From: Thermoleophilia bacterium
GTDB lineage: Bacteria > Actinomycetota > Thermoleophilia > Gaiellales > Gaiellaceae
Length of the DNA stretch: 64,000 bases
Reading direction: 5' to 3'
NCBI GenBank assembly: GCA_023382435.1
Contig: JAHDVS010000009.1
Span: 1 to 64,000, forward strand
Shown piece by piece: positions 38,256 through 59,077 of the stretch; the stretch's first letter is position 1; every line of letters begins with the position of its first letter. The position numbers and the translations under genes were made by a program. The notes beneath the pieces are model-generated. The model searched no databases. It was not told where the DNA came from and saw only the letters and a program-made list of their open reading frames with translations.

Positions 38256-39212
38256 ATGGCTGCACCGCTCCTCGTCCTCGGCGTTCGCCGTTCGGGCACG
38301 ACGCTGCTGCGGCTGATGCTCGACCGCCACCCGCACCTGGCGATCCCCGACGAGTCGTACTTCATCCCGCAGCTCGCGGCGCGCCACCGCGGGCGCCTCG
38401 ATCCGGCCGCGTTCGAGGACGACCTGCGGCGCCTCCCGACCCTTGCCGAGTGGGGCGTGTCCGCGCGGGACGTGCGCGAGCGCCTACCGGCCGGCGCGAC
38501 GGTCGCCGACGGGGTCACGGCGATCTACGGACTCTACGCGGAACGACGCGGCAAGAACCGCTGGGGGGACAAGACGCCGCTCTACATGCGCTACCTGCCG
38601 CTGCTCGAGCGCCTGTTCCCGGATGCCCGCTACGTCCACCTCGTCCGCGACGGGCGCGACGCGGCCCTCTCCTTCCTGTCGGTCCCGCCGGGGATCATGA
38701 CCGAGTCGTGGGGGCATCCGCGCGACGCGGCCGGCTTCGCCTGCCAGTGGCGCACCGAGGTGCTCGCGGCCCGCGCGCTCGGCCGGCGCGCCGGCGAGCG
38801 CTACCTCGAGGTTTCCTACGAGGCGCTCGTCGCCGACCCGCGGCGGGAGCTCGAGCGGGTCTGCGCGCACGTCGGCCTCCCGTTCGAGCCGGGGATGCTC
38901 GAATACGAGGGCGCGGCGGAGGCGGCGGCCAAGCCGCATCAGCAGAGCCTGCGCCGACCCCCGACGCCGGGGCTCCGCGACTGGCGGGTCGGCATGGAGT
39001 CCGGGGCCGTGGCCGCGTTCGAGGCGGTCGCGAGCGACGTTCTGGCCGAGCTCGGCTACGAGCTGCGGTCGCCCGCACGCGCCGCCGGCCCCGGCGCCCG
39101 GACGCGTCTCGCGCTTGCAGCCTACGCGGCGAAGGCCGGTGCCTGGAAGGCGACGGGCGCGGCGCTCCAGCGTTCCCCCCACTGGCGTCGGCGCCACCCG
39201 AGAGTCGCGTGA
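38256..39212 (+). CDS. Sulfotransferase family protein 5
   Basis: 318 residues. 5'-phosphosulfate loop LVLGVRRSGTTLLRLML near residues 6-22, RWGDKTPLYMRYLPLLERLFPDARYVHLVRDGRDAALSF (split) near 101-139 with the 3'-phosphate motif, CQWRTEVLAARALG, and VSYEALVADPRRELERVCAHVG near 186-207. C-terminal RRPPTPGLRDWRVGMESGAVAAFE is typical of Sulfotransfer_3 proteins such as those modifying glycans or glycopeptides. Monocistronic with its own leaderless promoter, convergent with the PQQ-repeat protein. Confidence 0.89.
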   Translation: MAAPLLVLGVRRSGTTLLRLMLDRHPHLAIPDESYFIPQLAARHRGRLDPAAFEDDLRRLPTLAEWGVSARDVRERLPAGATVADGVTAIYGLYAERRGKNRWGDKTPLYMRYLPLLERLFPDARYVHLVRDGRDAALSFLSVPPGIMTESWGHPRDAAGFACQWRTEVLAARALGRRAGERYLEVSYEALVADPRRELERVCAHVGLPFEPGMLEYEGAAEAAAKPHQQSLRRPPTPGLRDWRVGMESGAVAAFEAVASDVLAELGYELRSPARAAGPGARTRLALAAYAAKAGAWKATGAALQRSPHWRRRHPRVA

Positions 39213-40536: not shown

Positions 40537-41967
40537 CTAGGGCGCGCGCGGCTGCCGCGCGAGCGCGGCCGCGGCGACGGCGAGGATCCCCCAGGTCAGC
40601 GGATCCTCGAAGAAGCCGCTGTAGAACAGCGAGTGCACGAGCAGGAGCAGGAACGCTGACGCGAGCCCGAGGCCGAGCGCGCGGTCGCGCCGGAACGCGG
40701 CCGCGAGCAGCCGGGCGGCACCGGCCAGGAACGCCACGTAGACCGCGAGCCCGAGCACGCCGAGCTCGGCGGCAACCGTGAGCGGCGTCGTGTGCGACGC
40801 GTACTTCTCGCGATCCTTGACGCCGCTTCGCTCCTGGCTCGCCTGCGGCTGCGAGCCGACACCGACCCCGGTCAGGGGGTCGTCCGCGAACACGCGCCAG
40901 GTGCTCGCGACGAGCGGTGAGCGCCCGCTCGTCAGCCGGTCGAGGGGCTGATCCCGCACGACCACGGCGACGAACGCGCCGGCGGCGAGCGCGACGGCGA
41001 GCGTCCCGGCGGCGAGCTGGCGCCTGCTGGTGCGGTCCGCTGCGATGAAGCTGACGGCAAGCACGGAAACGACGAGCGCGACCATCGCCGACTGCGAATA
41101 GGAGAAGTAGAGGCCAGACCAGAGAACCGCGAGCAGCGCGACCGCGGGCACGAGGCGGATCCGGGCGAGCCAGAGGGCGGCCACCAGGATCACGATTGCA
41201 AGCGCGAGCTGCCGCGCGTAGATGCTCGAGTCGCCGAAGAGCGACGTCGTGCGGAAGTAGGTCGTGTACGCGTTCGCGACCTCGAGATCGCGGGCGAAAT
41301 AGAGCCGCTCCGTCCAGAGCTGCGAGATCCCGACGGCCGCGAACCCGCACGCGAGCGCGACCAGCGTGGCCGCAAGCGATCGGGGCCACCACGGTGCGGC
41401 CGGAGCGCGGGCGACCACGGCGAGCAGCGCGCCGAACGGGAGCAGGAAGAACAGGAGCTGGATCGCCCCGGCACGCTCATCGCCGGCCCAGAGCATCGAG
41501 ACGGCCGACAGCCCGATGAACGCCACGGCGGGCAGCGCGAGCGGGCGTGGCAGCGCCTGCGTCTTCGCGCCGCGGAGCAGGCGGAGGAGGAAGGCGAGAA
41601 CGGCCGCGGCGAGGATGGCGTAGAGCGGAACGAGCAGAAACGCGTCCTGGTCGCCGATCGCGACAGGCACCCGAAACGGGGCTGCGGCGAGAGCGCAGGC
41701 CGGCACGAGAGCCGGCCACCGCGCCAGCAGCCCCGCGAGCGCCAGCAGGGCGACACCGATAACCGCGACGAGCGCGATCCTCGCGGGCGAATCCAGGAGG
41801 GCGCGCAGGTCGCTCGCCGGAACGAGCGCGTACGCGAGCCCGCCCATGCCGGCGGCGAGCAGCACGATCCCGGAGGCGAGCGTCCCCCGGCCACGGGCGA
41901 GCAGGACGAGAGCGACTCCCGCGGCCCCCACGATCGCGGCGCCGCTCGCGACGTCGGCGTGCTCCAT
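40537..41967 (-). CDS. O-antigen ligase/polymerase-like membrane protein 2
   Basis: 476 residues with about 12 hydrophobic segments. The ligase/polymerase signature is GVGVGSQPQASQERSG then KYASHTTPLTVAAELGVLG near residues 380-420, in a periplasmic loop, with further helices after it. Likely polymerises or ligates lipid-linked glycan. ATG overlaps the stop of the FlgD-like gene by one base (TGATG), so the two are co-translated. Confidence 0.86.
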   Translation of the reverse strand: MEHADVASGAAIVGAAGVALVLLARGRGTLASGIVLLAAGMGGLAYALVPASDLRALLDSPARIALVAVIGVALLALAGLLARWPALVPACALAAAPFRVPVAIGDQDAFLLVPLYAILAAAVLAFLLRLLRGAKTQALPRPLALPAVAFIGLSAVSMLWAGDERAGAIQLLFFLLPFGALLAVVARAPAAPWWPRSLAATLVALACGFAAVGISQLWTERLYFARDLEVANAYTTYFRTTSLFGDSSIYARQLALAIVILVAALWLARIRLVPAVALLAVLWSGLYFSYSQSAMVALVVSVLAVSFIAADRTSRRQLAAGTLAVALAAGAFVAVVVRDQPLDRLTSGRSPLVASTWRVFADDPLTGVGVGSQPQASQERSGVKDREKYASHTTPLTVAAELGVLGLAVYVAFLAGAARLLAAAFRRDRALGLGLASAFLLLLVHSLFYSGFFEDPLTWGILAVAAAALARQPRAP

Positions 41968-42941
41968 CAGGGCTGCGCCGCCGTGACGGCCACCTGCGCC
42001 CGGTCGCGACGCTCGTTCGCCGTGACGCGAAGCACGTATGCGCCCGAGCCGAGATCGGGAGGCAGCGGAACGCCGACCTCCCCGGGCGCCGCCTCCCCCC
42101 GCAGGATCACCCGGCCCGCCTTGCCGTCCCGCGACCGGTGGAGTGCCCAGCCGAACGTGACCGCGTCGGCATCGACGCCGAAGGTGAGCGTCCCCCCGAC
42201 CTCCGCCGTGTACGAGTCCTCGTCGAGGCGGATGAAGCGCACCTCGAGGGGAAGCGACGGAGCGGGCTCGGAGAGGTTCCCGGCCGCGTCGCGCACCCGA
42301 ACCGAGACCCGGTAGATACCCGCACGGACGGTCTCGCCGGCGATCCGGCCGCCCCAGCGCAACCCGGCCTTCCCGGCCGGGCGGCTGGGCCCGCGCACGA
42401 CCGTCTCGCCGTCCACGAGCAGCTCGGCACGGCCCCGCTCGCCCGAGCGGAAGATCGCCTTCGTCCGGTCGCGGCGGCCGTCGCCGTCGGGCGAGAAGAC
42501 CGCCGGGACGAGCCGGACGAGCGCGACCTCGGGAGGAGTCGCGTCGAGCTCGACGGTCGTGGGGATCAGGATCGTTCGCCGCTCGCCGACGAGCCGGAGC
42601 CGCAACCTGTAGCGGCCGTCGGCCGCGACCGCGCCCGCGTCGTCGCGCCCGTCCCACGCGAAGACGTGGTCACCGATCCCGATCCGCTCGCCGCGGACGA
42701 GCGTGCGCACGGCCTCGCCCTTCACGTCCACGATCACCGCGTCGACGGTCTCGGCGCGACGGAACCTCAGCCGCAGACGGGCGGTCGCGGTCTCGCAGTC
42801 GCAGACCGGGGAGAACAGGCGGTCGAAGCGGGGCGCGGTGAGCGGGGAGCGCTCGAGCTTCAGCCGCTCGGCGACGGCAAACGCAGCCGCCGTGCCCGCG
42901 ACGAGCACGAGCACGACGATCGTGACGGCGAACCTGGACAA
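41967..42941 (-). CDS. Exported protein with FlgD-like Ig repeats
   Basis: 324 residues. N-terminal hydrophobic signal/anchor (VTIVVLVLVAGTAAAFAV) near residues 6-23. Then repeated Ig-like modules of the FlgD type: GDHVFAWDGRDDAGAVAADGRYRLRLRL (split) near 89-117 and LRWGGRIAGETVRAGIYRVSVRVRDAAGN near 195-222. AVFSPDGDGRRDRTKAIF near 148-165 is the SPxGDG-type segment also seen in the protein at 60853-62622. Function unknown, likely extracellular. The TTG start lies 9 nt after TAGAAT. First gene of a pair with the O-antigen polymerase-like protein 2. Confidence 0.75.
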   Translation of the reverse strand: MSRFAVTIVVLVLVAGTAAAFAVAERLKLERSPLTAPRFDRLFSPVCDCETATARLRLRFRRAETVDAVIVDVKGEAVRTLVRGERIGIGDHVFAWDGRDDAGAVAADGRYRLRLRLVGERRTILIPTTVELDATPPEVALVRLVPAVFSPDGDGRRDRTKAIFRSGERGRAELLVDGETVVRGPSRPAGKAGLRWGGRIAGETVRAGIYRVSVRVRDAAGNLSEPAPSLPLEVRFIRLDEDSYTAEVGGTLTFGVDADAVTFGWALHRSRDGKAGRVILRGEAAPGEVGVPLPPDLGSGAYVLRVTANERRDRAQVAVTAAQP

Positions 42942-42984: not shown

Positions 42985-43761
42985 TCAGAAGATGCCGACG
43001 AGCTTGAGCCCGGCCAGGAACAGCACCGCGGCGAGCGCCGTCCTGATCGCCCGGTCCGGAAGCCTGACCGTCAGGTGCCCGCCGGCGAGCACGCCGGGGA
43101 TCGAGCCGAGGGCGAGCCAGCCCGTCGCCGCGAGGTCGACGTTCCCGCTCGCGAGATGGGCGATCCCGGCCGCCCAGAGCAGGATCGCGGCATGGAAGAT
43201 GTCCGTCCCGACGATCTTGGCTGCCGTGAGCGGGAAGAGCACGATCATCGCAAGGCCGAAGAAAGTGCCGCTGCCGACGGAGGTGAGGCCGAGCACGAAC
43301 CCGCCGACGGCCCCGATCGCCACCGCGAGCACGCGGTCTCGCCGGGCCAGCCGGTACGGCCGGTCGTCAACCGGCCGGCGGTGGATGTAAGTCTTTGCGA
43401 GGAAGCCGAGCCCGACCACGACGAGGGCGATACCGAGGGTCGTGGTGGCGATGTCGTGGATATCGTCCCCGTAGCGGCGCTCGAGCAGCTCGACGAGGAC
43501 GACGCCGCCGATCGAGGACGGGACCGATCCGAGCGCGAGCCAGAAGCAGAGGCGGGCGTGGACGTGGCCGAGCACGCGGTGCTGCCCCGCCCCGATCGTC
43601 TTGAAGATCGCGCCGTGGAGGATGTCCGTCCCGACCGCCGTGACCGCCTTGAAGTCGAAAACCAGGATCAGGATCGGCGTCATCAGGGAGCCGCCGCCCA
43701 TGCCCGTGACCCCGACGAGCAGGCCGATCAGGAGCCCGGTGAGCGTGAGCTCCCAGGTCAC
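42985..43761 (-). CDS. TauE/SafE (TSUP) family sulfite/organosulfonate exporter
   Basis: 258 residues, about eight membrane segments in two similar halves. LTLTGLLIGLLVGVTGMGGGSLMTP near residues 5-29 and GFVLGLTSVGSGTFFGLAMIVLFPLTAAKIVGTDIFHAA (split) near 153-191 are the two family repeats. TauE/SafE proteins export sulfite, sulfoacetate or related sulfonates. Last gene of the leftward sulfur cluster, 64 nt after ATP sulfurylase; GTG start without a clear ribosome binding site. Its place next to sulfite- and sulfonate-forming enzymes supports a sulfonate or sulfite substrate. Confidence 0.87.
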   Translation of the reverse strand: MTWELTLTGLLIGLLVGVTGMGGGSLMTPILILVFDFKAVTAVGTDILHGAIFKTIGAGQHRVLGHVHARLCFWLALGSVPSSIGGVVLVELLERRYGDDIHDIATTTLGIALVVVGLGFLAKTYIHRRPVDDRPYRLARRDRVLAVAIGAVGGFVLGLTSVGSGTFFGLAMIVLFPLTAAKIVGTDIFHAAILLWAAGIAHLASGNVDLAATGWLALGSIPGVLAGGHLTVRLPDRAIRTALAAVLFLAGLKLVGIF

Positions 43762-43825
43762 GGACGGGGAGGGGCCGCGGGGGCCCGCCGGTCGCGCTCA
43801 CCCTTCCCGGCGAGCCCCGCCATGC

Positions 43826-44953
43826 CTAGCTTCCGCGGTACGCCTCGATGAGGACCCGCGCGACCTCGGGCCGCGAGAACTCGGCCGGAGGCAGCTCCCC
43901 GCCCGAGAGCAGCTCGCGCACCTTCGTCCCCGACAGGAAGACGTGATCGTCTCCCGAGTGGGGGCAGGTCTTCGCGCTCGCCATCTGGCCGCACGGCTTG
44001 CACCAGAAGGAGTGCTCGAAGAACATCGGCTCGATGTCGAGCTCGTGGGCCTCGAACTCGTCGAAGATGAGCTGGGCGTCGTAGCTGCCGTAGTAGCTCC
44101 CGACGCCGGCGTGGTCGCGACCGACGATGAAATGCGAGCAGCCGTAGTTCTTGCGACAGAGCGCGTGCCAGATCGCCTCCCGCGGCCCCGCGTAGCGCAT
44201 CGCGGCCGGAAACGCGGACACGACCACCCGATCGCGCGGGTAGTAGCCGTCGATCAGCACCTCGTAGGCCTTCACCCGCACCGAGGCGGGGACGTCGTCG
44301 GACTTGGTCTCTCCCACGAGCGGGTGGATGAGCAGGCCGTCGACGGTCTCGAGCGCGCACTTCGTCAGGTACTCGTGGGCGCGATGGATCGGGTTGCGGG
44401 TCTGGAAGCCGACGACCCGCTTCCAGCCGCGCTCGGCAAACAGGGCGCGCGTGTCCTTCGGGTCGCGGTGGAGCTCGGGAAAGCCGGGCCGCTGCCGCTC
44501 GAACACGGTCACGGGGCCGGCCAGGTAGAGGTCGTGCTGCGCGTACAGGCGTGCGACCCCCGGGTGCGCGTCCTCGGTGGTGCGGAAGCAGCGCTCGGCC
44601 TCGCGCTCCTTGTCGTAGGAGTACGTCTCCTCGACGTCGAGCACGGCGAGCAGCCGTCCGCCCTCGTCGGCGAGCGCGACGCGATCGCCCCGGGGAGCCG
44701 CGGGCACGGCGAGGCAGACGGGTAGAGCCCAGGGCAGCCCGCTTCCGAGGCGCATCTCGTCGAGCACGCCCCGGTAGTCGGCGCTGCCCATGAACCCGGT
44801 CAGGGGGGAGAGCGCGCCGGAGGCGAGCATGTCGAGGTCGGACGCCTCGCGGGAGGTGAGGGTGACGACCTCGAGCGACTCGACGTCCGCGGGCCGCTCG
44901 CCCGTGCAGTCGACGAGCGCGCCGCCGTGCGGAGCGATCAGGTGGCCGATCAC
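43826..44953 (-). CDS. sat: Sulfate adenylyltransferase (ATP sulfurylase)
   Basis: 375 residues, monomeric Sat type rather than CysDN. Forms APS from sulfate and ATP. N-terminal PUA-like part, then the nucleotide motif [16 protein letters not shown] near residues 180-195 and a second motif [15 protein letters not shown] near 272-286. C-terminal [34 protein letters not shown] (split) near 313-347 has the zinc cysteines of this family. GTG overlaps the APS kinase stop as GTGA. Confidence 0.96.
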
Positions 44954-45549
44954 GCGCCCACCCGGCTCTCGACGAGACCGAGCTCCTCGAGCCTGGCCAT
45001 GATCAGCGCGGCGCTCTCCCGGGGGTCGTGAGCCTCCGTGTCGACCGCGATCTCCGCACCCTCCGGAGCCTCGTACGGGTCGTCGACCCCGGTGAAGCCC
45101 TTGATCTCGCCGGCGAACGCCTTCGCGTAGAGGCCCTTGACGTCGCGCCGGGCACACTCGTCGACCGAGGCGTGCACGTGCACCTCGACGAACGGCCCGT
45201 ACTCCTCGACGAGTCGCCGCGCGGTCTCGCGCGTCTCCCGGTAGGGCGAGATCGCAGCGACGATCACGGCGGCACCGTGGCGGGTCAGGCGGGCGGCGAC
45301 CCAGCCGATCCGCTCGATGTTCGTGTCGCGGTCCTCCTTCGAGAAACCGAGCCCCTTCGAGAGGTGCGTGCGGACCACGTCGCCGTCGAGGTACTCGACG
45401 ATCTTGCCGCGCTCCTCGAGCTCCGGGCCGACCAGGTGGGCGATCGTGGTCTTGCCGGCGCCCGAGAGCCCGGTGAACCAGAGGGTGAAGCCGCCGCCCG
45501 CGACCCGATCCGATTCGGGGTGCTCGACGGGATGGATGTTGTCGCTCAT
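44950..45549 (-). CDS. cysC: Adenylylsulfate (APS) kinase
   Basis: 199 residues. P-loop GLSGAGKTT at residues 27-35, [32 protein letters not shown] (split) near 55-86, [13 protein letters not shown], and [31 protein letters not shown] (split) near 127-157. It phosphorylates APS to PAPS, the donor used by sulfotransferases; five such genes lie in the same window. The ATG at 45549 overlaps the APS reductase stop as ATGA. Confidence 0.96.
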
Positions 45550-46244
45550 GTCTCCCTTTCCTCGATTACCTCGTGAATGCCGCATTCGAGCTTGTCCGAG
45601 CCGGCCCAGCGGCCGGCCCGCTCCTCCTCGTCAGCCCGGATCGGGCGGGTGCACGGGATGCACCCGATCGACCGGTAGCCGGCGTCGTGGAGTGGGTTGT
45701 AGGGGATGTCGTTCGCCATGATGTACGACCAGACGCGCTGCTCGTCCCAGTCGGCGAGCGGGTGGATCTTCCAGACGCCGTAGCGCTCCGAGCGCACCAC
45801 CTTCGGCATGCCGGCCCGGCTTGGCGACTGGTCGCGCCGGATCCCCGAGATCCAGGCATCGTACGGCTCGAGCGCCTGGATCAGGGGCTCGACCTTGCGG
45901 ATGTGGCAGCACCGGTCGGGGTCGGTCTCCCACAGGTTCGGCCCCTCGGTCGTGTGCTGCTCCGCGACCGTGAGCACCGTCGGGCGGATCAGCGTCAGCC
46001 CGTAGCGCTCGACGAGGCGGTCACGCGTCTCGTAGGTCTCGCGGAAGAAGAGGTGGGTGTCGAGCTCGATCACGTCGACGCCGAGCCCGAGCCCGGAGAC
46101 CATGTGCACGAGCACGGACGACTGCTTCTGCCACGAGCACGTGAGGCAGAGACGCTCGCCGAACTCGGCGTGCGCCCAGCGGATCAGATCCTCGGCGCCG
46201 AGCCGCTCGAGCTCGCTCGCCGGCGCCGACAGCCCGGTCGTCAT
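45546..46244 (-). CDS. cysH: Adenylylsulfate (APS) reductase, [4Fe-4S] type
   Basis: 232 residues. Reduces APS to sulfite and AMP with thioredoxin. Four cluster cysteines, CC at 112-113 and CIPC at 195-198, mark the APS-specific rather than PAPS-specific enzyme. The catalytic cysteine is C221 in [20 protein letters not shown] near 37-49 and [16 protein letters not shown] near 60-75 form the PP-loop region. ATG overlaps the comA stop as ATGA, placing sulfite production directly with a sulfite-using enzyme. Confidence 0.95.
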
Positions 46245-47017
46245 CCGCCCTCCCCGAGCAGCAGCTCGCGCAGGGTGTCGGCGCGCAGGCCGAGCCTGAG
46301 CGTCTCGAGCGGGATCACCTCGTCGGGTGGGATGTTGCCGAGATTGACCTCCGGGCCGAAGTGCTTGACGAACCAGGCCTGCGCCAGCTTCGCGGGCGCC
46401 TCGAAGATCACGTTCTCGACGTCGATCGAGTGGGCGATCTCGTCGATCAGCCCGGTGCGCATCTCGCCGGTCGGGCGATAGATGCCGGCGGTGCCGCCCT
46501 CGCGCCCCTCGGTGATCACCTTCCAGGCGCCGGCGGCGAGCTCCTCGCGGATCCACTCGACCCACTGGTAGGGGGCGAACACGACGTCTGCGTCCTTCGA
46601 GCCGACCTCGGAGAGGACGACGAAGTCGCGCGACAGCTCCGCGATCAACTCGAGCTTGCGCTCGCGCGTCAGCTCGACCGTGCCGTCGGAGATCTCGACA
46701 TGGGAGAAGCGGTGGTGGGCGAGCCAGCGGCGATACTCGTCGAGCTTGCCGAGCGCGACCGCCGCCTCGAAGAGAGTGCCGCCGCAGACGACGGGAACGT
46801 CGAGGGAGCGGTAGAGCGCGATCTTCTTCTCGAGGTTCCGGGTCACGTACGAGGTGCCCCAGCCGAGCTTGACGATGTCGACGTAGTCGCCGGCGGTGTC
46901 GAAGAGCCCCTCGATCTCCCGCAGGTTCAGTCCCTTGTCGATCACGTGGGTGAGGCCCCGGGCGCGCGGCTTCGGCGACCGGGCGGGTACGTCGAGGAAC
47001 CCCTCAGAGCCGGTCAT
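46241..47017 (-). CDS. comA: Phosphosulfolactate synthase
   Basis: 258 residues, usual length. Adds sulfite to phosphoenolpyruvate giving (R)-2-phospho-3-sulfolactate. Marks: THVIDKGLNLREIEGL near residues 23-38, VDIVKLGWGTSYVTRN near 46-61, VVCGGTLFEAAVA near 76-88, SHVEISDGTVELTR, LSEVGSKDADV near 134-144 and ITEGREGGTAGIYRPTGEMR near 166-185. Known roles are coenzyme M synthesis in archaea and some bacteria, and sulfolactate in Bacillus spores (yit genes, next to sulfate-activation genes). It overlaps the fumarase beta gene by 14 nt. ComB, ComC and ComDE are not present. Confidence 0.92.
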   Translation of the reverse strand: MTGSEGFLDVPARSPKPRARGLTHVIDKGLNLREIEGLFDTAGDYVDIVKLGWGTSYVTRNLEKKIALYRSLDVPVVCGGTLFEAAVALGKLDEYRRWLAHHRFSHVEISDGTVELTRERKLELIAELSRDFVVLSEVGSKDADVVFAPYQWVEWIREELAAGAWKVITEGREGGTAGIYRPTGEMRTGLIDEIAHSIDVENVIFEAPAKLAQAWFVKHFGPEVNLGNIPPDEVIPLETLRLGLRADTLRELLLGEGG

Positions 47018-47588
47018 AGAGAGCCTCCAGCCGCCTGCGCGCCTCCGCCTGGACGTCGTGGTAGAGCGAGGTGCCGTGCGCGTCGATCCCGACCGTGAGC
47101 GGTCCGAAGTCCCGGACCCGGAACAGCCACAGGCACTCGGGCATCAGGTCCTCCCACTCGACCGCCTCGATCTCCTCGATCTGGGTCGTCTCGAGGGCGG
47201 CCGCGCCGCCGACGATCGCGAGGTAGACCATCCCGAGGCGGCGCATCGGCTCGATCGCCTCGTCGGGCAGGCCGCCCTTGCCGCAGATCGCACGCACGCC
47301 GTAATCGATGCCGAGCCCCTCGGTGAACCTGACCATGCGGGCGCTCGTGGTCGTGCCGATGCAGAGCTTCTCGTAGCGCCCATTGCCGAGCGGGCGCACG
47401 TTCGGTGCAGTGTGGAGAAGCAGGGCGCCCCGGAGATCCATGTGCGGTCGGCGGCCCTCGTCGAACATGCGGATCTGCGTGCGGTCGCGGATCCCGACGA
47501 TGTGCCCGTCGACGACGATCGAGTCGCCCGCACGCAGGTCGCGCACGTGCTGCTCGTCGGTCGGGAAGGTGAGGCGGTAATCGGCCAT
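47004..47588 (-). CDS. Class I fumarase / tartrate dehydratase-type hydro-lyase, beta subunit
   Basis: 194 residues. RLTFPTDEQHVRDLRAGDSIVVDGHIVGIRDRTQIRMFDEG (split) at the N-terminus, LLLHTAPNVRP, GTTTSARMVRF near 77-87, ICGKGGLPDEAIEPMRRLGMVYLAIVGGAAAL (split) near 100-131 and RDFGPLTVGIDAHGTSLY near 158-175 are the TtdB/FumA C-terminal-domain signatures. It forms the active site together with the alpha subunit. ATG overlaps the alpha stop by one base (TGATG). Substrate could be malate/fumarate or an analogue. Confidence 0.9.
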   Translation of the reverse strand: MADYRLTFPTDEQHVRDLRAGDSIVVDGHIVGIRDRTQIRMFDEGRRPHMDLRGALLLHTAPNVRPLGNGRYEKLCIGTTTSARMVRFTEGLGIDYGVRAICGKGGLPDEAIEPMRRLGMVYLAIVGGAAALETTQIEEIEAVEWEDLMPECLWLFRVRDFGPLTVGIDAHGTSLYHDVQAEARRRLEALYDRL

Positions 47589-48496
47589 CACGCGTCCCGG
47601 TCGTAGCGCACGTCGCCGTCGGCGGTGACGTGCGCGCTCGCCCGCCGAGCCGCCCAGCACTGGTAGTTGACGGCGACCGGGTTCAGGGTCATGTGCGTAT
47701 CCGCGTGCTCGACGTGGCACTGGAGCACGGTCACGTCGCCGCCGAGGCCCATCGGGCCGATCCCCGTCTCGTTCAAGAGCCCGTACAGGTCGTCCTCGAG
47801 CCTTGCGACCTCCGGGTCGGGGTTGCGGGTGCCGATCGGCCGGGCGATCGCCTCCTTGGCGAGGTGCATGGCGTAGTCGGCTGTGCCGCCGATACCGACG
47901 CCGACGATTCCGGGCGGGCACGGCTTGCCACCGGCGCCGACGATCGAGTCGAGCACGAACCGCTTGATCCCGGCGACGCCGTCGGCCGGCACGCACATCC
48001 TGAGGAAGCTCATGTTCTCGGAGCCGGACCCCTTCGGAACGCACTTGACGTCGAGGTCGTCGCGGCCCGTCACGAACTCCCAGTGGACGATCGGGACGCG
48101 GTAGCCGACGTTCGGGCCGGTGTTCTGGCGCGTCAGCGTGTGGACGGTGTTCGACCGCAGCGGATGCTCGACGGTCGCGCGCTCGGTGCCGCGGCGCAGG
48201 GCCTCGTAGATGCGGGCGGGGTGGAGCGGGAAGCCCTCCCCGACCCGGCAGTAGTAGACGGCGATCCCGGTGTCCTGGCAGACGAGGTTGTCCTCGCGGT
48301 CGGCCACCTCGACGTTGCGGACGATCGTGTCGAGCACGCGGCGGCCGGGCACCGAGGTCTCCCGCTCCCGGGCCGCGCCGAGCGCGTCCCGCAGATCCTG
48401 CGGGATGTCCTTGAGCGCCCACACGTAGAGGTAGGCGGCGGCGTCCTCGACGACCCGCTCGACGGGCCGGACAGGTCCGGCCCCTACGGCATCCAC
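47588..48496 (-). CDS. Class I fumarase / tartrate dehydratase-type hydro-lyase, alpha subunit
   Basis: 302 residues, [4Fe-4S] hydro-lyase. [16 protein letters not shown] near residues 71-86 gives one cluster cysteine; [26 protein letters not shown] (split) near 115-142, [15 protein letters not shown] near 153-167, [21 protein letters not shown] near 189-209 with a second cysteine, and [20 protein letters not shown] near 249-268 with the third. GTG start one nt after the flavoprotein stop. In isolation a fumarase; next to comA it may act on a sulfo-analogue such as sulfolactate. That is an inference. Confidence 0.9.
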
Positions 48497-48497
48497 C

Positions 48498-49706
48498 TCA
48501 CGACCTCGCTTTCTCCGCGGCCGCCGCCCCCGCGCGCCGACCGAAGACGACGCACTCGAGCAGCGAGTTCCCCATCATGCGGTTGCGGCCGTGCGTGCCC
48601 CCGGCGATCTCTCCGCACGCGTAGAGGCCCTCGACGGTCGTCTGACCGCGCGCATCGATCACGAGCCCGCCGTTCTGGTAGTGGAGGACGGGGCGGGTGA
48701 GAACCGGCTCGGCAAGGGGGTCCACACCCGCCGCGCGGTAGCGGCGCAGCATGTAGGGAAGCGAGAGCTCGGCGTCGGCGCGGGCGATCCCCGTCGTGTC
48801 GAGCCAGACGGCGGAGCGCCCGTCGGGGGCCGTCACGCCGCGACCCTCGTCGAGCTCGCGGAGGATCGCGTCGGCGACGACGTCGCGGGGCGCCAGCTCG
48901 TCGACGAAGCGCTCGCGCGCGGCATTGAGAAGCGTCGCGCCGTAGGCGCGCGTCGTCTCGGGAATCGAGTACCCCAGCACTCCCGCGGGCCATGCTCCGC
49001 CGGTGGGGTGGTACTGGAGCGCATCGAGGTCGCGGGCGAGCGCGCCGAGCGCGAGCGCGAGCTCCGTGACCTCGCCCGTCGCGCCCGGATGGTTCGTCGA
49101 CAGCTCGCCTCTGAGCTCGGCCTCGCGAAAGCAGCGCCCGCCCGCCGCCAGCACGACGGCGCCCGCCGTGACCTCGGCCTCCTTGCCGCTCTTCGGCCGG
49201 CAGGTCGCGACCAGGCCGTTCTCCGTGCGGCGAAGGGCGACGAGGGGATGACCTGGCAGCGCGGTCGCGCCGGAGACGTCGAGCGCGCTCCTCAGGGCCG
49301 TCGTGATCGCGTGACCGGTGCGGTCACCGACCTGGAGCAGGCGAGACCGGCTCGCGCCGCCGCAGCGCGCGAGCCGGTACCCCCCATTCTGGCGGGTGAA
49401 CGCGACCCCGTGGTGCTCCAGCCAGTGGATCGCGGCGGGCCCCTCCGAGGTCAGGGCCTCGACGAGGCCGGGGTCGGCCGTCTCGTGGGAGCTGCGCCAG
49501 ACGTCCCCGGCATGAAGCTCGGGCGAGTCGTCCGCGCCGACGGCCGCCTGAATCCCGCCCTGGGCCTTGGCCGAGTTCGACGACTGGAGCGAGCCCTTGG
49601 TCACGAGCGCGACCCGCGCCCCGGCGCGCCGCGCGGAGAGCGCGGCAGCGAGGCCGGAGGCGCCGCTTCCGACCACGAGTACGTCGACGCTGAGACCCCG
49701 GGCCAC
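48498..49706 (-). CDS. Fumarate reductase / L-aspartate oxidase-like FAD flavoprotein
   Basis: 402 residues from GTG at 49706, fixed by TACGAT 7 nt upstream. FAD motif VLVVGSGASGLAAALSARRAG near residues 9-29, SLQSSNSAKAQGGI near 39-52, the active-site region QYHPTGGAWPAG near 228-239, the catalytic Arg in ARERFVDELAPRDVVADAI near 257-275, and the end HYQNGGLVI plus GLYACGEIAGGTHGRNRMMGNSLLE (split). It lacks the long C-terminal helical domain of SdhA and NadB; nadA and nadC are not near. So it probably reduces or oxidises a C4-type dicarboxylate or an analogue. First gene of the sulfur cluster. Confidence 0.85.
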   Translation of the reverse strand: MARGLSVDVLVVGSGASGLAAALSARRAGARVALVTKGSLQSSNSAKAQGGIQAAVGADDSPELHAGDVWRSSHETADPGLVEALTSEGPAAIHWLEHHGVAFTRQNGGYRLARCGGASRSRLLQVGDRTGHAITTALRSALDVSGATALPGHPLVALRRTENGLVATCRPKSGKEAEVTAGAVVLAAGGRCFREAELRGELSTNHPGATGEVTELALALGALARDLDALQYHPTGGAWPAGVLGYSIPETTRAYGATLLNAARERFVDELAPRDVVADAILRELDEGRGVTAPDGRSAVWLDTTGIARADAELSLPYMLRRYRAAGVDPLAEPVLTRPVLHYQNGGLVIDARGQTTVEGLYACGEIAGGTHGRNRMMGNSLLECVVFGRRAGAAAAEKARS

Positions 49707-49713
49707 CGCACGC

Positions 49714-49719
49714 ATCGTA
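49714..49719 (-). promoter_or_regulatory. -10 TACGAT, leaderless promoter of the eight-gene sulfur cluster
   Basis: Minus-strand TACGAT ends 7 nt before the GTG at 49706, which argues for that start over the ATG at 49715 inside the hexamer. Confidence 0.55.
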
Positions 49720-51053: not shown

Positions 51054-51707
51054 TCAGCCGCCGAGGCCGCCGAGGATGGCGAACGGGTTCTGGGGCGCGA
51101 CCTCCCAGACCATGTCGCCGCCCGGCTGGACGTGCACGGTGGCGGCGGGAAGCTCCCGACGCAACCGCTCGGCCAGCTCGCGAGCCTGCTCCTCGCTGAT
51201 CGCGCCCACGAGCAGGAAGGAGTGGCGTCGGACGACCGGAACGCCCTCCGACTCGAGGCGTTCCGCCAACGCCACGCATTCGGCGTGCCCGGGCAGCTCG
51301 ACCCTGACCTCCCAGTCCGCGTGGCCGCTCGCCAGGGCCTCCGCCTCCTCGCGAGCCTCGCGACGGGCTTCCTCGGCCGCCAGCTCCGCCGCCGTGGCCG
51401 GCAGCGGCACGCTGATGTCCACCCAGGCCTCCTCGACGGGATGCCAGCGCTCGACGGCCACGAGCGCATCGTCCCCCTGCTCCTCGAGCTCGACGTGGAC
51501 GTGGCGCTCCACCGCGCTCGTCTGCGCCTCGGAGCCCGCGTAGAGGAAAACGCGGGCCGCGTCGCGGCTGACGATCACGCGGTCGCCGAATCGCCGGCGC
51601 TCCTCCGCGGCGAATCGCCTAGCGTCGAGACGCTCGAGCAGGTCGGCGCCGTCGGCCTCGTCGTCGAAGTCGACGGTGATCCTGAAGTCGTCGGACACGA
51701 CCGTCAT
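51054..51707 (-). CDS. Soluble acidic protein of unknown function
   Basis: 217 residues, strongly acidic with long helices (AAELAAEEARREAREEAEALA near residues 104-124) and no membrane segment. The first part has a strand-rich region (FRITVDFDDEADGADLLERLDARRF, split) and the last part has WEVRVELPGHAECVALAERLESEGVPVVRRHSFLLVGAISEEQARELAERLRRELP (split), which resembles a small ferredoxin-like fold used in regulatory domains. No family recognised. ATG overlaps the LysR stop as ATGA, so it is co-translated with the regulator. Confidence 0.75.
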   Translation of the reverse strand: MTVVSDDFRITVDFDDEADGADLLERLDARRFAAEERRRFGDRVIVSRDAARVFLYAGSEAQTSAVERHVHVELEEQGDDALVAVERWHPVEEAWVDISVPLPATAAELAAEEARREAREEAEALASGHADWEVRVELPGHAECVALAERLESEGVPVVRRHSFLLVGAISEEQARELAERLRRELPAATVHVQPGGDMVWEVAPQNPFAILGGLGG

Positions 51708-52627
51708 TCTGACTGCTCGCGGCCCTCGCGGTGGGCGGCTTCGACCCGCGCCTTCGCGAATGCGGCGAACTCCCGCCCGGCCCGGGTGGGGACCCGGCCA
51801 GCGGCGCGCACGAGGTAGATCTCGCGGGCGGGTGCCAGACCACGTACCGTCGCCGTGCCGAGCGTGCCGGCGGCCAGCTCCTCCTCGAGCGCGGCGCGGG
51901 AGATGAACCCGACCCCGTAGCCGGCGACGACCGCGCTCTTCACGGACTCCTGGAGGCCGAGCTCGATCCTCGCAGCGGGACGCAGACGCACCCGAGCGCG
52001 GCGCAGCTCTCCCTCGACGACCTGACGCACTCCGGCGCCGTCCTGCATCTCGATCAGGGTCTCCCCGGAGAGGTCGGCAGCCTCCACCGTTTGCCCGGCC
52101 AGCCGATGGCCGCGCGGCACGGCGAGCACGATCTCGTCCCGGGCGAGTGGCTCGAAGTCGAGCGTGCGGGCCCGGGTGCGGGCTCCCACCACCCCGAGCT
52201 CGAGCTCGCGGGCGGCCACACGGTCGATCACGGTCTGCGTGTCGAAGATCGAGAGCGCGACGCGCAGCCCGGGGTGGCGGCGCGCGAACTCGCACGCGAG
52301 CAGGGGCACGAGGCGGCCGCCGGGGCCCGTGGATGCTCCGACCGCAAGCATTCCTCGTAGCTCCGCCCCCTCGCCCGCCGCAAGCTCGTCGAGGAGTTGC
52401 TGCTCGGCCTGCAACACGCGCTGGGCCGCCAGATACAGGCGCCGGCCGGCCTCCGTCGGCTCGACCCGCCGGCCGGAGCGGTCGAGTAGCCGCTGGCCCA
52501 CTCGCTCCTCGAGCGTCCGCACCTGGAGGCTAACGGCAGGCTGCGTGACGCCGAGACGCTCGGCGGCCTGCGAGAAGCTCCGCCGCTCAACGACCGCGCA
52601 GAACGACGCGAGCTGGCGCGTATCCAT
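51704..52627 (-). CDS. LysR-type transcriptional regulator
   Basis: 307 residues. N-terminal winged HTH: LASFCAVVERRSFSQAAERLGVTQPAVSLQVRTLEERVGQRLLDR (split) at about residues 6-50, an exact match to the family pattern. The substrate-binding domain, about 90-295, includes VGASTGPGGRLVPLLACEFARRHPGLRV and the second-lobe GYGVGFISRAALEEELAAG near 232-250. It probably controls the MFS transporter in its own operon and may act on the inverted repeat at 49730-49748. ATG lies 8 nt after CATAAT. Confidence 0.92.
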   Translation of the reverse strand: MDTRQLASFCAVVERRSFSQAAERLGVTQPAVSLQVRTLEERVGQRLLDRSGRRVEPTEAGRRLYLAAQRVLQAEQQLLDELAAGEGAELRGMLAVGASTGPGGRLVPLLACEFARRHPGLRVALSIFDTQTVIDRVAARELELGVVGARTRARTLDFEPLARDEIVLAVPRGHRLAGQTVEAADLSGETLIEMQDGAGVRQVVEGELRRARVRLRPAARIELGLQESVKSAVVAGYGVGFISRAALEEELAAGTLGTATVRGLAPAREIYLVRAAGRVPTRAGREFAAFAKARVEAAHREGREQSE

Positions 52628-53521: not shown

Positions 53522-54217
53522 GTGCACTCCGAATCGCTCGCCGAGCGCTACGCCCGGCTCGCCCACGAGGGGCTCGAGCGGCGGCCGGTCGACGCGTCGC
53601 TCCGCTTGCTCGACATCGTCATCTCCGGCGCGGCGCTCCTGCTCTTCTCGCCCGTGGCGCTCCTGATCGCGCTCGCGATCAGGCTCACCTCCGGCAGCCC
53701 CGCCCTCTACCGGGGTGCCCGGGTCGGCCGGGCCGGGCGGGTGTTCACGATGCTGAAGTTCCGCACGCTGGCGACGGACGCCGAGAGCCGGCTCGGCCCG
53801 TACTGGGGCGCCGAGCTCGACCGGCGCACCGGGGCGGAAGTGACGAGGCTCGGACGCTGGCTGCGCGCCTCGCAGCTCGACGAGGTGCCCCAGCTTTGGA
53901 ACGTCCTGGCCGGCGACATGAGCGTGGTCGGCCCACGTCCGATCAGGCCCGCCTTCTTCGAGGAGCTGTGCGAGCAGATTCCCCAGTACTGGCAGCGACT
54001 GGTGGTGCGGCCGGGCCTGACGGGATTCGCGCAGACACGCATGGGGCGCGAGCCGTCCTGGGGCGAGAAGCTCGCCCACGACCTCGAGTACGTGGCCGAC
54101 CGCTCGGTGGGGCTGTACCTGCGCGTCGTCGCCGCGACGATCCTTCGGGTTGCCCGGCAGTCCGGCCGGGCGATCCTGGGCCTCCTGCGTGGCGCGGGCG
54201 GCCCGGAGCGGGACTGA
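53522..54217 (+). CDS. Undecaprenyl-phosphate sugar phosphotransferase 2
   Basis: 231 residues. One membrane helix near residues 29-52 (LLDIVISGAALLLFSPVALLI) then the bacterial sugar transferase domain: FTMLKFRTL near 74-82, LRASQLDEVPQLWNVLAGDMSVVGPRPIRP (split) near 113-142, and VVRPGLTGFAQTRMG near 160-174. Second initiating transferase in the window; it starts the right-hand polysaccharide block, while the first (15669-16268) belongs to the left block. Followed by a DUF354 glycosyltransferase-like gene. Confidence 0.9.
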   Translation: MHSESLAERYARLAHEGLERRPVDASLRLLDIVISGAALLLFSPVALLIALAIRLTSGSPALYRGARVGRAGRVFTMLKFRTLATDAESRLGPYWGAELDRRTGAEVTRLGRWLRASQLDEVPQLWNVLAGDMSVVGPRPIRPAFFEELCEQIPQYWQRLVVRPGLTGFAQTRMGREPSWGEKLAHDLEYVADRSVGLYLRVVAATILRVARQSGRAILGLLRGAGGPERD

Positions 54218-54270: not shown

Positions 54271-55281
54271 GTGCGCGTCTGGGTCGACATCACCGCGCCG
54301 GCGCACGTGCTCGTGTTCCGGCCCCTCATCCGCCTGCTGCAGGAGCGTGGCGCCGAAGTCGGGGTCACGGCCCGTGACTACGCCCAAACCGTGGAGCTGC
54401 TCTCCCTGCACGGGATCGACGCGGAGCTGCTCGGACACCACGGCGGGCGCTCCCGAGCGGGGAAGCTGCAGGCGCTCACCTCCCGCCTGCCGGCCCTGGT
54501 CCGCTGGGCACGCGGCCGGCGCCTCGACGTCGCGCTCGCCCACGGCTCGCACGAGCTCACGCTGGCTGCGCGACGGCTCGCGATCCGCAGCGCCACGACG
54601 TTCGACTACGAGTTCGCGACCCTCCAGCACCAGCTCGGCTGCCGGGCCGCGACCCGGGTGGTCGTCCCGGAGGCGATCCCGCCGGCGCGCCTCCGGCGCT
54701 ACGGGGTCGGTGAGTCGAAGCTGCGCCGGTATCCGGGCCTGAAGGAGGAGTACTACCTCGCCGACTTCGAGGCCGACCCGGAGGCGTTCGGTCGGCTCGG
54801 CGTCAAGCCGGAGCACGTGATCGTCGTCGTGCGGACACCGCCTGACGTCTCCCTCTACCACCGTCGCTCGAACCCGCTGTTCCCGCAAGTGCTCGAGCAC
54901 CTGGGTCGGGATCCGTCGGTGCGCGCGGTCATCGTCCCTCGCACGGTCGAGCAGCGCACGTACGTGCGGGGGCTTCACCTCCCGTCCCTCGTCGTTCCCG
55001 ACGGGGCGGTCGACGCCCAGAGCCTGATCGCTCTCGCCGACCTCGTCGTCTCCGCCGGGGGGACGATGAACCGTGAGGCCGCTGCGCTCGGCGTGCCCGT
55101 CTACACGACGTTTGGCGGGCGGCTGGGCGGCGTCGACGAGCTCCTGATCCGGGAGGGGCGTCTGCGCCCGCTCACGGATCCGCGCGCACTCGAGCTGGTC
55201 AAGCGCACCGGATCGGGCGCGCGCGTACGCCGCGACCCGGCGCTCATGCTCGACCTCCTGCTCTCGGCCCTCGAGGGCTGA
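54271..55281 (+). CDS. DUF354-family GT-B-like protein
   Basis: 336 residues. VWVDITAPAHVLVFRPLIRLLQERGAEVGVTARDY (split) at the N-terminus, GLKEEYYLADFEADPEAFGRLGV near 153-175 and the C-terminal SLIALADLVVSAGGTMNREAAALGVPVYTTFGGRLGGVD (split) near 252-290 are the marks of DUF354, a group related to the UDP-GlcNAc 2-epimerase/MurG GT-B fold and frequent in polysaccharide loci. It may be a glycosyltransferase; catalytic residues are not established. Short gap of 10 nt to the convergent helicase. Confidence 0.87.
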   Translation: MRVWVDITAPAHVLVFRPLIRLLQERGAEVGVTARDYAQTVELLSLHGIDAELLGHHGGRSRAGKLQALTSRLPALVRWARGRRLDVALAHGSHELTLAARRLAIRSATTFDYEFATLQHQLGCRAATRVVVPEAIPPARLRRYGVGESKLRRYPGLKEEYYLADFEADPEAFGRLGVKPEHVIVVVRTPPDVSLYHRRSNPLFPQVLEHLGRDPSVRAVIVPRTVEQRTYVRGLHLPSLVVPDGAVDAQSLIALADLVVSAGGTMNREAAALGVPVYTTFGGRLGGVDELLIREGRLRPLTDPRALELVKRTGSGARVRRDPALMLDLLLSALEG

Positions 55282-57202: not shown

Positions 57203-59077
57203 TCACAGAACCGTCCGGGGCTCCTCGACGGCGACGCGCCTGGAAGCACGAACGATCGTTCCCAGCTTGCCGACGGCCTCGAGCGTGTCGCCCTCGTCGA
57301 CGAGGCGCATCAGCCCGGCCAGCTCGTCGTCGAGCCAGGCCGGATCGACCTCCTGGGCCTTGCAGCGGAAGATCTTCGGATTGGCGGTGGCGACGGCGTC
57401 CTCCCCCTCCGCCCAGAGCTCCTCGTGGAGCTTCTCCCCGGGCCGCACGCCGATGATCTCGACCGGGACGTCCCGGCCGGGCTCCTTGCCCGACAGCCGG
57501 ATCATGTCGTGGGCGAGATCGATGATCCGCACGGGCTCCCCCATGTCGAGGACGAACACGTCGCCGGACTCGCCGATCGCACCCGCCTGCACGATCAGCT
57601 GCGCCGCCTCCGGGATCGTCATGAAATACCGGGTCATCTCGGCATGGGTGACCGTGACCGGCCCGCCACGCGCGATCTGACGGCGAAACAGGGGGATCAC
57701 GCTGCCCGAGGAGGCCAGCACGTTGCCGAACCGAACAGCGATGTAGCGGGTGCGGTTGCCGGGGCGGCGGGCCGCGTTGTGCACGATCCACTCGCAGAGC
57801 AGCTTCGTCTGCCCGAGCACGTTCTGCGGGTTGACCGCCTTGTCGGTGGAGACGAGCACGAACGTGCCGGTGTCGAACTCGGCGGCGACCTCGGCGAGCG
57901 CCTGGGTCGACCCGACGTTGTTGCGGATCGACTCGACCGGGTTGCCCTCCATGAGCGGAACGTGCTTGTACGCCGCCGCGTGGAACACGACGGCCGGGCG
58001 GTAGTGCTCGAACACCTGGCGTAGCTTCGCGCGGTTCTTCGCGTCGGCGAGCACCGACACGACCGCGGGGAAGCCCCGTTCGTGCAGGAGCTCGCGCTCG
58101 ATCGCGACGAGCGCGTTCTCGGCATGCTCGACGAGCACGATCCGCTCGGGACGGGCCAGCGCAAGCTGGCGGCAGAGCTCCGACCCGATCGACCCGCCCG
58201 CGCCCGTGACGAGCACGGTCTGGCCGGCGACGTAGGTGGCGATCGTGTCGAGATCGAGCTGAACGGCCTCGCGGCCCAGTACGTCCTCGACCTGCACCTC
58301 GCGCAGGCGCCGGGCGAGGTGCTCGTCGCCGGAGATCAACTCGTACACCGAAGGCAGCGTCTTGACCGGTACGCCCGCGTCGCGGCAGGCGGTAACGATC
58401 CGCTGGCGCGTCTCCCCGGGCGCGGAGGGAATCGCGATGATCACCTCGTCGGGTTTCGCGTCGGCTATCAGCTGCGGTAGCTCGTGCGTGGACCCGATCA
58501 CCCGGATGCCGTGCAGGCGGAGGTTCTTCTTGCGCGGGTCGTCGTCGACCGCGCCGATCGGCGTGTACCCGAAGCTCGCGTTGCGCAGCATCTCCTTGAT
58601 GATCAGCTGTCCGGCGTCCCCGGCCCCGACCACGAGCGCTTCCTTGCCGCGGGCGACGAGGCTGCGGGGCCCGGGGCGCTCGATGATCGTCCGCGCGAGC
58701 AGGCGGGCGCCGGCCACGAGCCCGAGCAGGACGAGCCAGTCGAGGACGAGCACGGAGCGGGGAACCCGGAAGCCGGCGACGGGGTCGGCCAGATAGACGA
58801 CGAACTCGGCCACGATCGTGGCGACGGTGACGCCGCGAACCAGTGCCCACATATCCCGGATCGAGACGTACCGCCACCAGTGGCTGTAGAACCCGAACAG
58901 GACGAAGATGGCGAGCTTGATCGGGGCGACGATGTAGATGCTCTGCTCGAACAGCCTGCCGTACGGGGCAGGGATTCCCGCGTCGAAGCGCAACCAGAAC
59001 GCGAGATACCAGGCCCCGACCACGAGCCCGGCGTCGACGGCCGCCTGCCAGACGCGGTGGCGCGACAGGAGCCTCAC
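57203..59077 (-). CDS. Membrane-bound nucleotide-sugar 4,6-dehydratase, CapD/WbpM/PglF type
   Basis: 624 residues from GTG at 59077. Four membrane helices in the first ~125 residues, a CoA-binding-like Rossmann domain (LVVGAGDAGQLIIKEML near 149-165), then the catalytic SDR domain with VLVTGAGGSIGSELCRQL near 283-300, AAAYKHVPLMEGNPVESIRNNV (split) and SxxxxxxK region VLVSTDKAVNPQNVLGQTK near 396-414. It converts a UDP-sugar (UDP-GlcNAc in characterised members) to its 4-keto-6-deoxy form. GTG overlaps the aminotransferase stop as GTGA. Confidence 0.93.
   Translation of the reverse strand: MRLLSRHRVWQAAVDAGLVVGAWYLAFWLRFDAGIPAPYGRLFEQSIYIVAPIKLAIFVLFGFYSHWWRYVSIRDMWALVRGVTVATIVAEFVVYLADPVAGFRVPRSVLVLDWLVLLGLVAGARLLARTIIERPGPRSLVARGKEALVVGAGDAGQLIIKEMLRNASFGYTPIGAVDDDPRKKNLRLHGIRVIGSTHELPQLIADAKPDEVIIAIPSAPGETRQRIVTACRDAGVPVKTLPSVYELISGDEHLARRLREVQVEDVLGREAVQLDLDTIATYVAGQTVLVTGAGGSIGSELCRQLALARPERIVLVEHAENALVAIERELLHERGFPAVVSVLADAKNRAKLRQVFEHYRPAVVFHAAAYKHVPLMEGNPVESIRNNVGSTQALAEVAAEFDTGTFVLVSTDKAVNPQNVLGQTKLLCEWIVHNAARRPGNRTRYIAVRFGNVLASSGSVIPLFRRQIARGGPVTVTHAEMTRYFMTIPEAAQLIVQAGAIGESGDVFVLDMGEPVRIIDLAHDMIRLSGKEPGRDVPVEIIGVRPGEKLHEELWAEGEDAVATANPKIFRCKAQEVDPAWLDDELAGLMRLVDEGDTLEAVGKLGTIVRASRRVAVEEPRTVL

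Follow-up and report, generated by a model that had tools for sequence, protein, structure and literature searches.

In Bacillus, the yitABCD operon places ComA beside the genes for ATP sulfurylase and an APS/PAPS reductase (APS, adenosine 5′-phosphosulfate; PAPS, 3′-phosphoadenosine 5′-phosphosulfate), includes ComB and ends at sulfolactate. In the coenzyme M synthesis of Xanthobacter, XcbC1 converts phosphosulfolactate to sulfoacrylate with removal of the phosphate (PMC8727900). 3-Sulfopropionate is a by-product of bacterial sulfoquinovose and homotaurine breakdown and is respired by Bilophila (PMC11489063); according to the part of that article that cites a thesis, its degradation in Roseovarius nubinhibens runs via sulfoacrylate and sulfolactate. 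Here we describe an operon of eight genes on a 64,000-nucleotide stretch of a Gaiellaceae genome (Thermoleophilia bacterium, assembly GCA_023382435.1, contig JAHDVS010000009.1, positions 1 to 64,000; “the window”), which we judge likely to make 3-sulfopropionate from sulfate and phosphoenolpyruvate.

In the proposed route, ATP sulfurylase (Sat) and APS reductase (CysH) would turn sulfate into sulfite, and ComA would combine this with phosphoenolpyruvate into (R)-phosphosulfolactate. Dephosphorylation, probably by an unlinked ComB-family protein, would then release (R)-sulfolactate. An Fe-S hydro-lyase (FUM) would dehydrate this to sulfoacrylate, in analogy to the dehydration of malate by fumarase, and a flavoprotein (FRD) would reduce sulfoacrylate to 3-sulfopropionate, a sulfur analogue of succinate, in the manner of fumarate reductase. 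Finally, a TauE/SafE protein (TauE) would export 3-sulfopropionate or surplus sulfite. We infer every substrate, and the direction of FRD, from sequence. A first-pass annotation of the window had already proposed these roles for FUM, FRD and TauE, and they remain the best-supported reading because of the synteny, the existence of mirror clusters with the sulfolactate genes SuyAB, SlcC and ComC, the active-site changes, the XcbC-like complement and the missing sulfite reductase.

All eight open reading frames (ORFs) of the cluster are open and intact and lie tightly packed on the minus strand from 49715 to 42985 (Table 1). Every one of the proteins has a Pfam match above the gathering score and the families are unambiguous, so that the annotated eight-gene sulfur cluster is borne out. 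The overlaps described for all genes except the last hold in part: the junctions are TGATG (FUM-alpha/FUM-beta), ATGA (ComA/CysH and CysH/CysC) and GTGA (CysC/Sat), FUM-beta and ComA overlap by 14 nt, and TauE stands apart, starting 64 nt past Sat, but a gap of 1 nt lies between FRD and FUM-alpha. No NCBIfam model matched the TauE of the cluster. TauE lies directly 3′ of ComA in relatives without CysH (L079, L084, L089), and in E. gilvus a TauE protein has been described as probably exporting 3-sulfopropionate (PMC11489063).

Conservation was counted in 299 sampled Thermoleophilia genomes; genome-wide statements on the host, a 2.7-Mb draft genome that is 96% complete (G000), rest on targeted searches. 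Gene content, conservation, residues, co-occurrence and the undetected sulfite reductase are computed results. The core of FRD, FUM and ComA is kept across Gaiellaceae and sister Thermoleophilia families, with ComA in 156 of the 299 genomes, FRD orthologues in 106 (103 of them also with ComA) and the FUM subfamily in 65 (63 also with ComA). The conserved neighbourhood for which the annotation had suggested searching exists: families f1 and f3 mostly have the order FRD-FUMA-FUMB-ComA, and the recurrence of this arrangement in dozens of genomes is far beyond chance. The single-contig relative G009 is without ComA, FRD and this FUM, all at once. In genus g13 (L083, L086) FRD is gone while ComA is still open, and FUM-alpha is broken or lost, with an in-frame TGA in G203 and fragments in different frames in G123; FUM was thus not maintained there after the loss of FRD.

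A tree separates the FUM subfamily from ordinary class I fumarases with a support of 99. Compared with 7xky and the Leishmania enzymes, FUM keeps the three cluster Cys, the catalytic Asp and His, and the substrate Arg, Thr, Arg and Lys. The pocket for the distal carboxylate has changed, from GPTT to GTTT and from RDxAH to RDxTQ in the beta subunit and from HxAS to HxT.N in the alpha subunit. These changes are common to ComA-linked and SuyAB-linked homologues, the subfamily having RDxT[QL] in beta. The comparison with fumarase that the annotation had called for therefore finds the catalytic residues kept and the pocket altered, and by its separate subfamily and pocket motifs FUM is not a fumarase proper (FumAB). 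As sulfur outranks carboxyl under the Cahn–Ingold–Prelog rules, (R)-sulfolactate has the spatial arrangement that corresponds to (S)-malate. The R form is the isomer of the ComA product and of the SuyAB substrate, and the stereochemistry thus fits a fumarase-type reaction.

To survey the subfamily beyond Thermoleophilia, a FUM-beta alignment was run against a genome collection of 84,980 species. The 80 best loci come from Actinomycetota, Pseudomonadota, Rokubacteria, Chloroflexota, Acidobacteria, Verrucomicrobia, Planctomycetes, Bacillota, Thermodesulfobacteriota, Archaeoglobus and others; 34 of them have SuyB, SlcC or ComC, 54 a dedicated SdhA and nine ComA. The genes on Methylobacterium plasmids run SdhB-SdhD-SdhC-FUMA-FUMB-SdhA ... 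TauE-SuyA-SuyB-DctA-SlcC-ComC, and plasmid pRHL1 of Rhodococcus jostii RHA1 reads SdhB-SdhA-two small membrane-subunit candidates-FUMA-FUMB, with SuyAB and SlcC/ComC homologues about 20 kb away. Judged by their gene content, the clusters of FUM, SuyAB, SlcC, ComC and a succinate dehydrogenase (SDH)-like complex in many phyla look like the reverse, degradative pathway. Their SuyB proteins are 57–77% identical to Paracoccus SuyB as against 36–41% to other UxaA, and the small and large subunits are separate. Cysteines of UxaA/GarD that are absent in SuyAB serve as a distinguishing mark (PMC6336799); the SuyB of the mirror clusters keeps one Cys, and the available two-subunit UxaA references share only that Cys.

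The two settings meet in Gaiella sp. FR_16, which has one FUM beside ComA and a second (81% alpha identity) in an SdhB-SdhA-SuyA-SuyB cluster. In the phylogeny this second FUM is nested inside the ComA-linked clade, which means that the same gene is used in synthetic and degradative settings. Two independent recruitments of FUM to ComA clusters are unsupported, as the data are compatible with a single clade (AU p 0.87). The catabolic cluster of FR_16 (L176, G085:C1:3064000-3082000) runs IclR-SdhB-SdhA-SuyA-SuyB-FUM and then aconitase X; its SuyB has an apparent frameshift near the start, possibly an assembly error. A further group of loci from Acidobacteria, Verrucomicrobia, Bacillota and others (L206-L237) has the same FUM and SdhA subfamilies and no SuyAB in the examined stretch; either their sulfolactate genes are located elsewhere or the substrate is another one.

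FRD forms its own clade, next to but outside NadB and SdhA (support 100), and its best NCBIfam matches, nadB and sdhA, are far below their cut-offs (nadB 256 bits versus 452.75). The AlphaFold model (pLDDT 82) has the fold of fumarate reductase and L-aspartate oxidase, with E. coli FrdA as closest solved structure (TMq 0.87), and ends before the C-terminal helical domain. Every aligned member retains the catalytic His, Arg, His and Arg together with the Glu-x-x-Arg proton path and has Pro at the Thr position of the C4-carboxylate pocket, so that the comparison with fumarate reductase, also suggested at first pass, gives the same picture of a kept catalytic set and a changed pocket. The catabolic SdhA clade has Glu at this position throughout, except in a divergent Archaeoglobus copy. 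In SdhA and NadB structures the Thr/Ser found there contacts the distal carboxylate, and two different changes at a position facing the would-be sulfonate fit a substrate other than fumarate. With neither C-terminal domain, FrdB/SdhB partner gene nor pocket Thr, FRD is not an FrdA or SdhA, and it is set apart from NadB by its separate clade and its score below the nadB cut-off. The host has separate FumC, SdhA and NadB genes elsewhere; a housekeeping fumarase and fumarate reductase were rejected on this ground and because FUM and FRD fall into clades of their own.

Families f2 and f5 have FRD and ComA without FUM, which contradicts a linear pathway unless another maker of sulfoacrylate exists. 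Their genomes carry an extra protein of the aspartase/fumarase superfamily whose best NCBIfam match is XcbC and which scores far lower on argH (247, 241 and 244 bits). As the XcbC scores (421, 368 and 403 bits) are below the cut-off of 575, we label this putative lyase XcbC-like only. Of the 106 genomes with FRD, FUM alone is present in 48, the XcbC-like protein alone in 39, both in nine and neither in ten, a mutual replacement with a Fisher p of 2e-11, uncorrected for ancestry. Since FRD is shared by genomes with FUM and genomes with the XcbC-like protein (96 of 106), its substrate is most likely sulfoacrylate. The phosphatase follows the same division: FRD genomes of f5 have the XcbC-like protein in 31 of 33 cases and a ComB homologue in none of the 33, those of f1 and f3 have FUM in 57 and a ComB homologue in 56 of 63, and within f1, 5 of 10 genomes with the XcbC-like protein lack ComB versus 5 of 72 others (p 0.002). 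This pattern would follow if dephosphorylation is a requirement of the FUM route alone. In two f5 genomes (L282, G007; L283, G122) the XcbC-like gene adjoins a full sulfate ABC transporter (CysA, CysW, CysT, Sbp).

The supply and fate of sulfite point in the same direction. CysH has both CC...C motifs (CCHIRK, GCIPC) and is by these marks an APS-type (4Fe-4S) reductase; it is the only PAPS/APS reductase in the host genome (sole PF01507 match). As an APS-type enzyme should not need PAPS, the PAPS made by CysC probably goes to nearby sulfotransferases rather than to CysH. The sulfate activation genes beside ComA are CysH-CysC-Sat, or CysH with CysDN elsewhere, or missing, and in sister loci Sat is replaced by CysDN. 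This exchange of genes with the function kept indicates that sulfite supply and ComA belong together. A sulfite reductase match (PF01077) was found neither in the host nor in the Gaiella genomes G085 and G129; G003, G009, G150 and G007 have one. Ordinary sulfate assimilation was rejected on the result for the host, where the lack of a visible route from sulfite to sulfide points to sulfonate synthesis.

The ComA of the cluster is a single-copy gene in the host and matches its Pfam family over the full length (293 bits versus a gathering score of 25.2). It also matches phosphosulfolactate synthase structures (1u83, E 3.6e-64; 1qwg, E 2.3e-47) and scores 244.8 on the archaeal model TIGR03849, below the cut-off of 280. 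The annotation had noted ComB, ComC, ComDE and Xcb partners as absent. This is true of the cluster, but the genome has a PF04029 ComB homologue (G000 C5:96222-96845). Because the presence of ComB does not track ComA, this unlinked protein is only a candidate phosphatase, and ComB was rejected as a linked one. ComC and ComDE are not in the cluster, and no genome-wide search was made for them; the Lyase_1 proteins of the host are FumC, ArgH and PurB, with no XcbC or XcbD, XcbE not having been searched. Coenzyme M synthesis via ComBCDE or Xcb was rejected, as the partner genes are missing from the cluster. In f6, f10 and f11 a histidine phosphatase family gene lies directly 3′ of ComA (L054, L056, L058, L059, L069, L108) and is a possible stand-in for ComB.

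Several findings weigh against the 3-sulfopropionate route. Of the 80 best FUM loci, 37 have neither a sulfolactate gene nor ComA, 13 of these being markerless and some of them lying on short contigs. Family f6 has FUM and ComA but no FRD, f10 and f11 have ComA only, and a ComB homologue is also found in relatives that lack ComA. To these are added the shortfall of the XcbC-like proteins against their cut-off and the co-occurrence statistics, which treat genomes as independent and ignore shared ancestry and gaps in metagenome-assembled genomes. Lastly, lacking the FrdB partner and the C-terminal domain, FRD could run as an oxidase. In such a scheme FRD would be a NadB-like oxidase, for example of sulfolactate to sulfopyruvate or of cysteate, and FUM would provide the sulfoacrylate to which a thiol is added, as happens when bacteria make coenzyme M. 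FRD is indeed a single chain with no Fe-S subunit and as like L-aspartate oxidase as fumarate reductase, and the Xcb pathway passes through sulfoacrylate (PMC8727900). We nevertheless consider an oxidase quite unlikely, as the Glu-x-x-Arg and Arg that form the proton path in fumarate reductases are retained in FRD, XcbD and ComC are not in the cluster, the host Lyase_1 proteins are accounted for, and the pairing of FRD with FUM or the XcbC-like protein points to sulfoacrylate. Degradation of sulfopropionate or sulfolactate, or a housekeeping fumarase and fumarate reductase beside sulfate assimilation, would be compatible with the protein families alone, and the homologous clusters of other phyla do look catabolic. 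However, ComA and sulfate activation are present here in place of SuyAB and uptake genes, assimilation to sulfide is not visible in the host, its housekeeping enzymes are encoded elsewhere, and G009 lacks ComA, FRD and this FUM together, all of which makes both variants highly improbable.

A different end product has to be weighed in view of the surroundings of the operon. A large polysaccharide locus extends around it (window 13000-61000). Genes of the exopolysaccharide (EPS) type (Wzy, Wzx, CapD, DegT, DUF354, glycosyltransferases, FlgD-Ig proteins) occur in the neighbourhood of 54 of 69 ComA loci versus none of 17 control stretches, ComA alone is still found inside polysaccharide clusters in f10 and f11, and genes for sulfotransferases and a PIG-L deacetylase are nearby. 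It is therefore possible that the ComA product is tied to a surface polymer: sulfoacrylate or 3-sulfopropionate would be an intermediate that is activated and then attached, or converted further by unlinked enzymes, instead of being released. On the other hand, no recurring acyl-activating or sulfonate-transferring enzyme was seen in the clusters, TauE directly after ComA in several genomes fits the release of a small molecule, and the synteny is perhaps inherited rather than functional; we regard this end product as doubtful. Equally tentative is its extension to the class, in which Thermoleophilia would build 3-sulfopropionate or other sulfoacrylate-derived sulfonates into extracellular polysaccharide, ComA would be a class-wide marker of sulfonated polymers, and the unrelated FUM and XcbC-like enzymes would feed one reductase. 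Among the other neighbours, a LysR-family regulator recurs near ComA/FRD (27 loci), and in several f1 genomes (L103, L092, L093, L097, L178, L182, others) an iron-containing alcohol dehydrogenase-like gene lies between LysR and FRD.

Table 1. Genes of the predicted sulfonate operon and of its surroundings, in window coordinates.
Feature	Position	Strand	Support
FRD, 405-aa single-chain FAD enzyme, candidate sulfoacrylate reductase	48498..49715	-	Pfam FAD_binding_2 1.7e-70
FUM-alpha, [4Fe-4S] class I fumarase-type hydro-lyase alpha, candidate (R)-sulfolactate dehydratase	47588..48496	-	Pfam Fumerase 1.1e-89
FUM-beta, hydro-lyase beta subunit	47004..47588	-	Pfam Fumerase_C 2.3e-24
ComA, predicted phosphosulfolactate synthase (phosphoenolpyruvate + sulfite)	46241..47017	-	Pfam ComA 2e-87
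CysH, APS reductase, predicted sulfite source	45546..46244	-	Pfam PAPS_reduct, NCBIfam, CC...C motifs
CysC, APS kinase, predicted PAPS maker	44950..45549	-	Pfam APS_kinase 3e-61; NCBIfam apsK above cut-off
Sat, ATP sulfurylase	43826..44953	-	Pfam ATP-sulfurylase; NCBIfam sopT 417.7 bits vs cut-off 323
TauE/SafE, candidate exporter of 3-sulfopropionate (or sulfite)	42985..43761	-	Pfam TauE 1.3e-39
LysR-family regulator	51704..52627	-	LysR_substrate + HTH_1 (Pfam, one family member)
Sulfotransferase-like ORFs	29611-30426, 31926-32783		motif only
Sulfotransferase gene	38256-39212		
Wzy-type ligase	40537-41967		
FlgD-Ig protein	41967-42941		
Sugar transferase	53522-54217		
DUF354 protein	54271-55281		
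CapD-like protein	57203-59113		
DegT protein	59074-60168		

The 3-sulfopropionate route had been put forward at first pass as new. This holds for the biosynthetic direction; the pathway intermediates are not new, because the steps between sulfopropionate, sulfoacrylate and sulfolactate are already reported for degradation in Roseovarius nubinhibens, as far as PMC11489063 cites that work. In the literature searched, with subscription papers outside its scope, we found no 3-sulfopropionate biosynthesis from sulfate and no sulfonate biosynthesis that would match this route. What appears to be new is thus the use of these intermediates in biosynthesis from sulfate, FRD, and the two predicted subfamily assignments. 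If the route is true, soil actinobacteria are a possible primary source of 3-sulfopropionate, ComA has a third branch besides coenzyme M and spore sulfolactate, two enzyme subfamilies that currently go by the names fumarase and fumarate reductase receive a function, and a corresponding pathway of degradation is predicted to be widespread.

Among the known systems, the degradation clusters of SdhABCD, FUM, SuyAB, SlcC and ComC are alike in their FUM subfamily and proposed intermediates, but run in the opposite direction, with a membrane SDH-like complex in place of the single-chain FRD and SuyAB in place of ComA. The Xcb coenzyme M pathway of Xanthobacter (XcbB1, which is ComA-type, and XcbC1) shares the ComA step and sulfoacrylate, and an XcbC-like protein replaces FUM in sister lineages; in the operon described here, however, an Fe-S enzyme of the class I fumarase type would form sulfoacrylate from sulfolactate, and the sulfoacrylate would then be reduced. 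ComA is likewise common to the ComABCDE coenzyme M route of methanogens, which proceeds by oxidation and decarboxylation where the present route would use dehydration and reduction, and compared with the spore sulfolactate operon of Bacillus, FUM and FRD are additional. At the level of the enzymes, FUM shares the family, the [4Fe-4S] Cys and the Asp, His and Arg/Lys residues with class I fumarase FumAB and L-tartrate dehydratase TtdAB, but forms a separate subfamily with an altered pocket that is linked to ComA or SuyAB. FRD, in turn, shares its fold and the catalytic His, Arg and Glu with FrdA, flavocytochrome c3 and NadB, and differs from them in the absence of the C-terminal domain and of FrdB, in the exchange of the pocket Thr for Pro and in its own clade.

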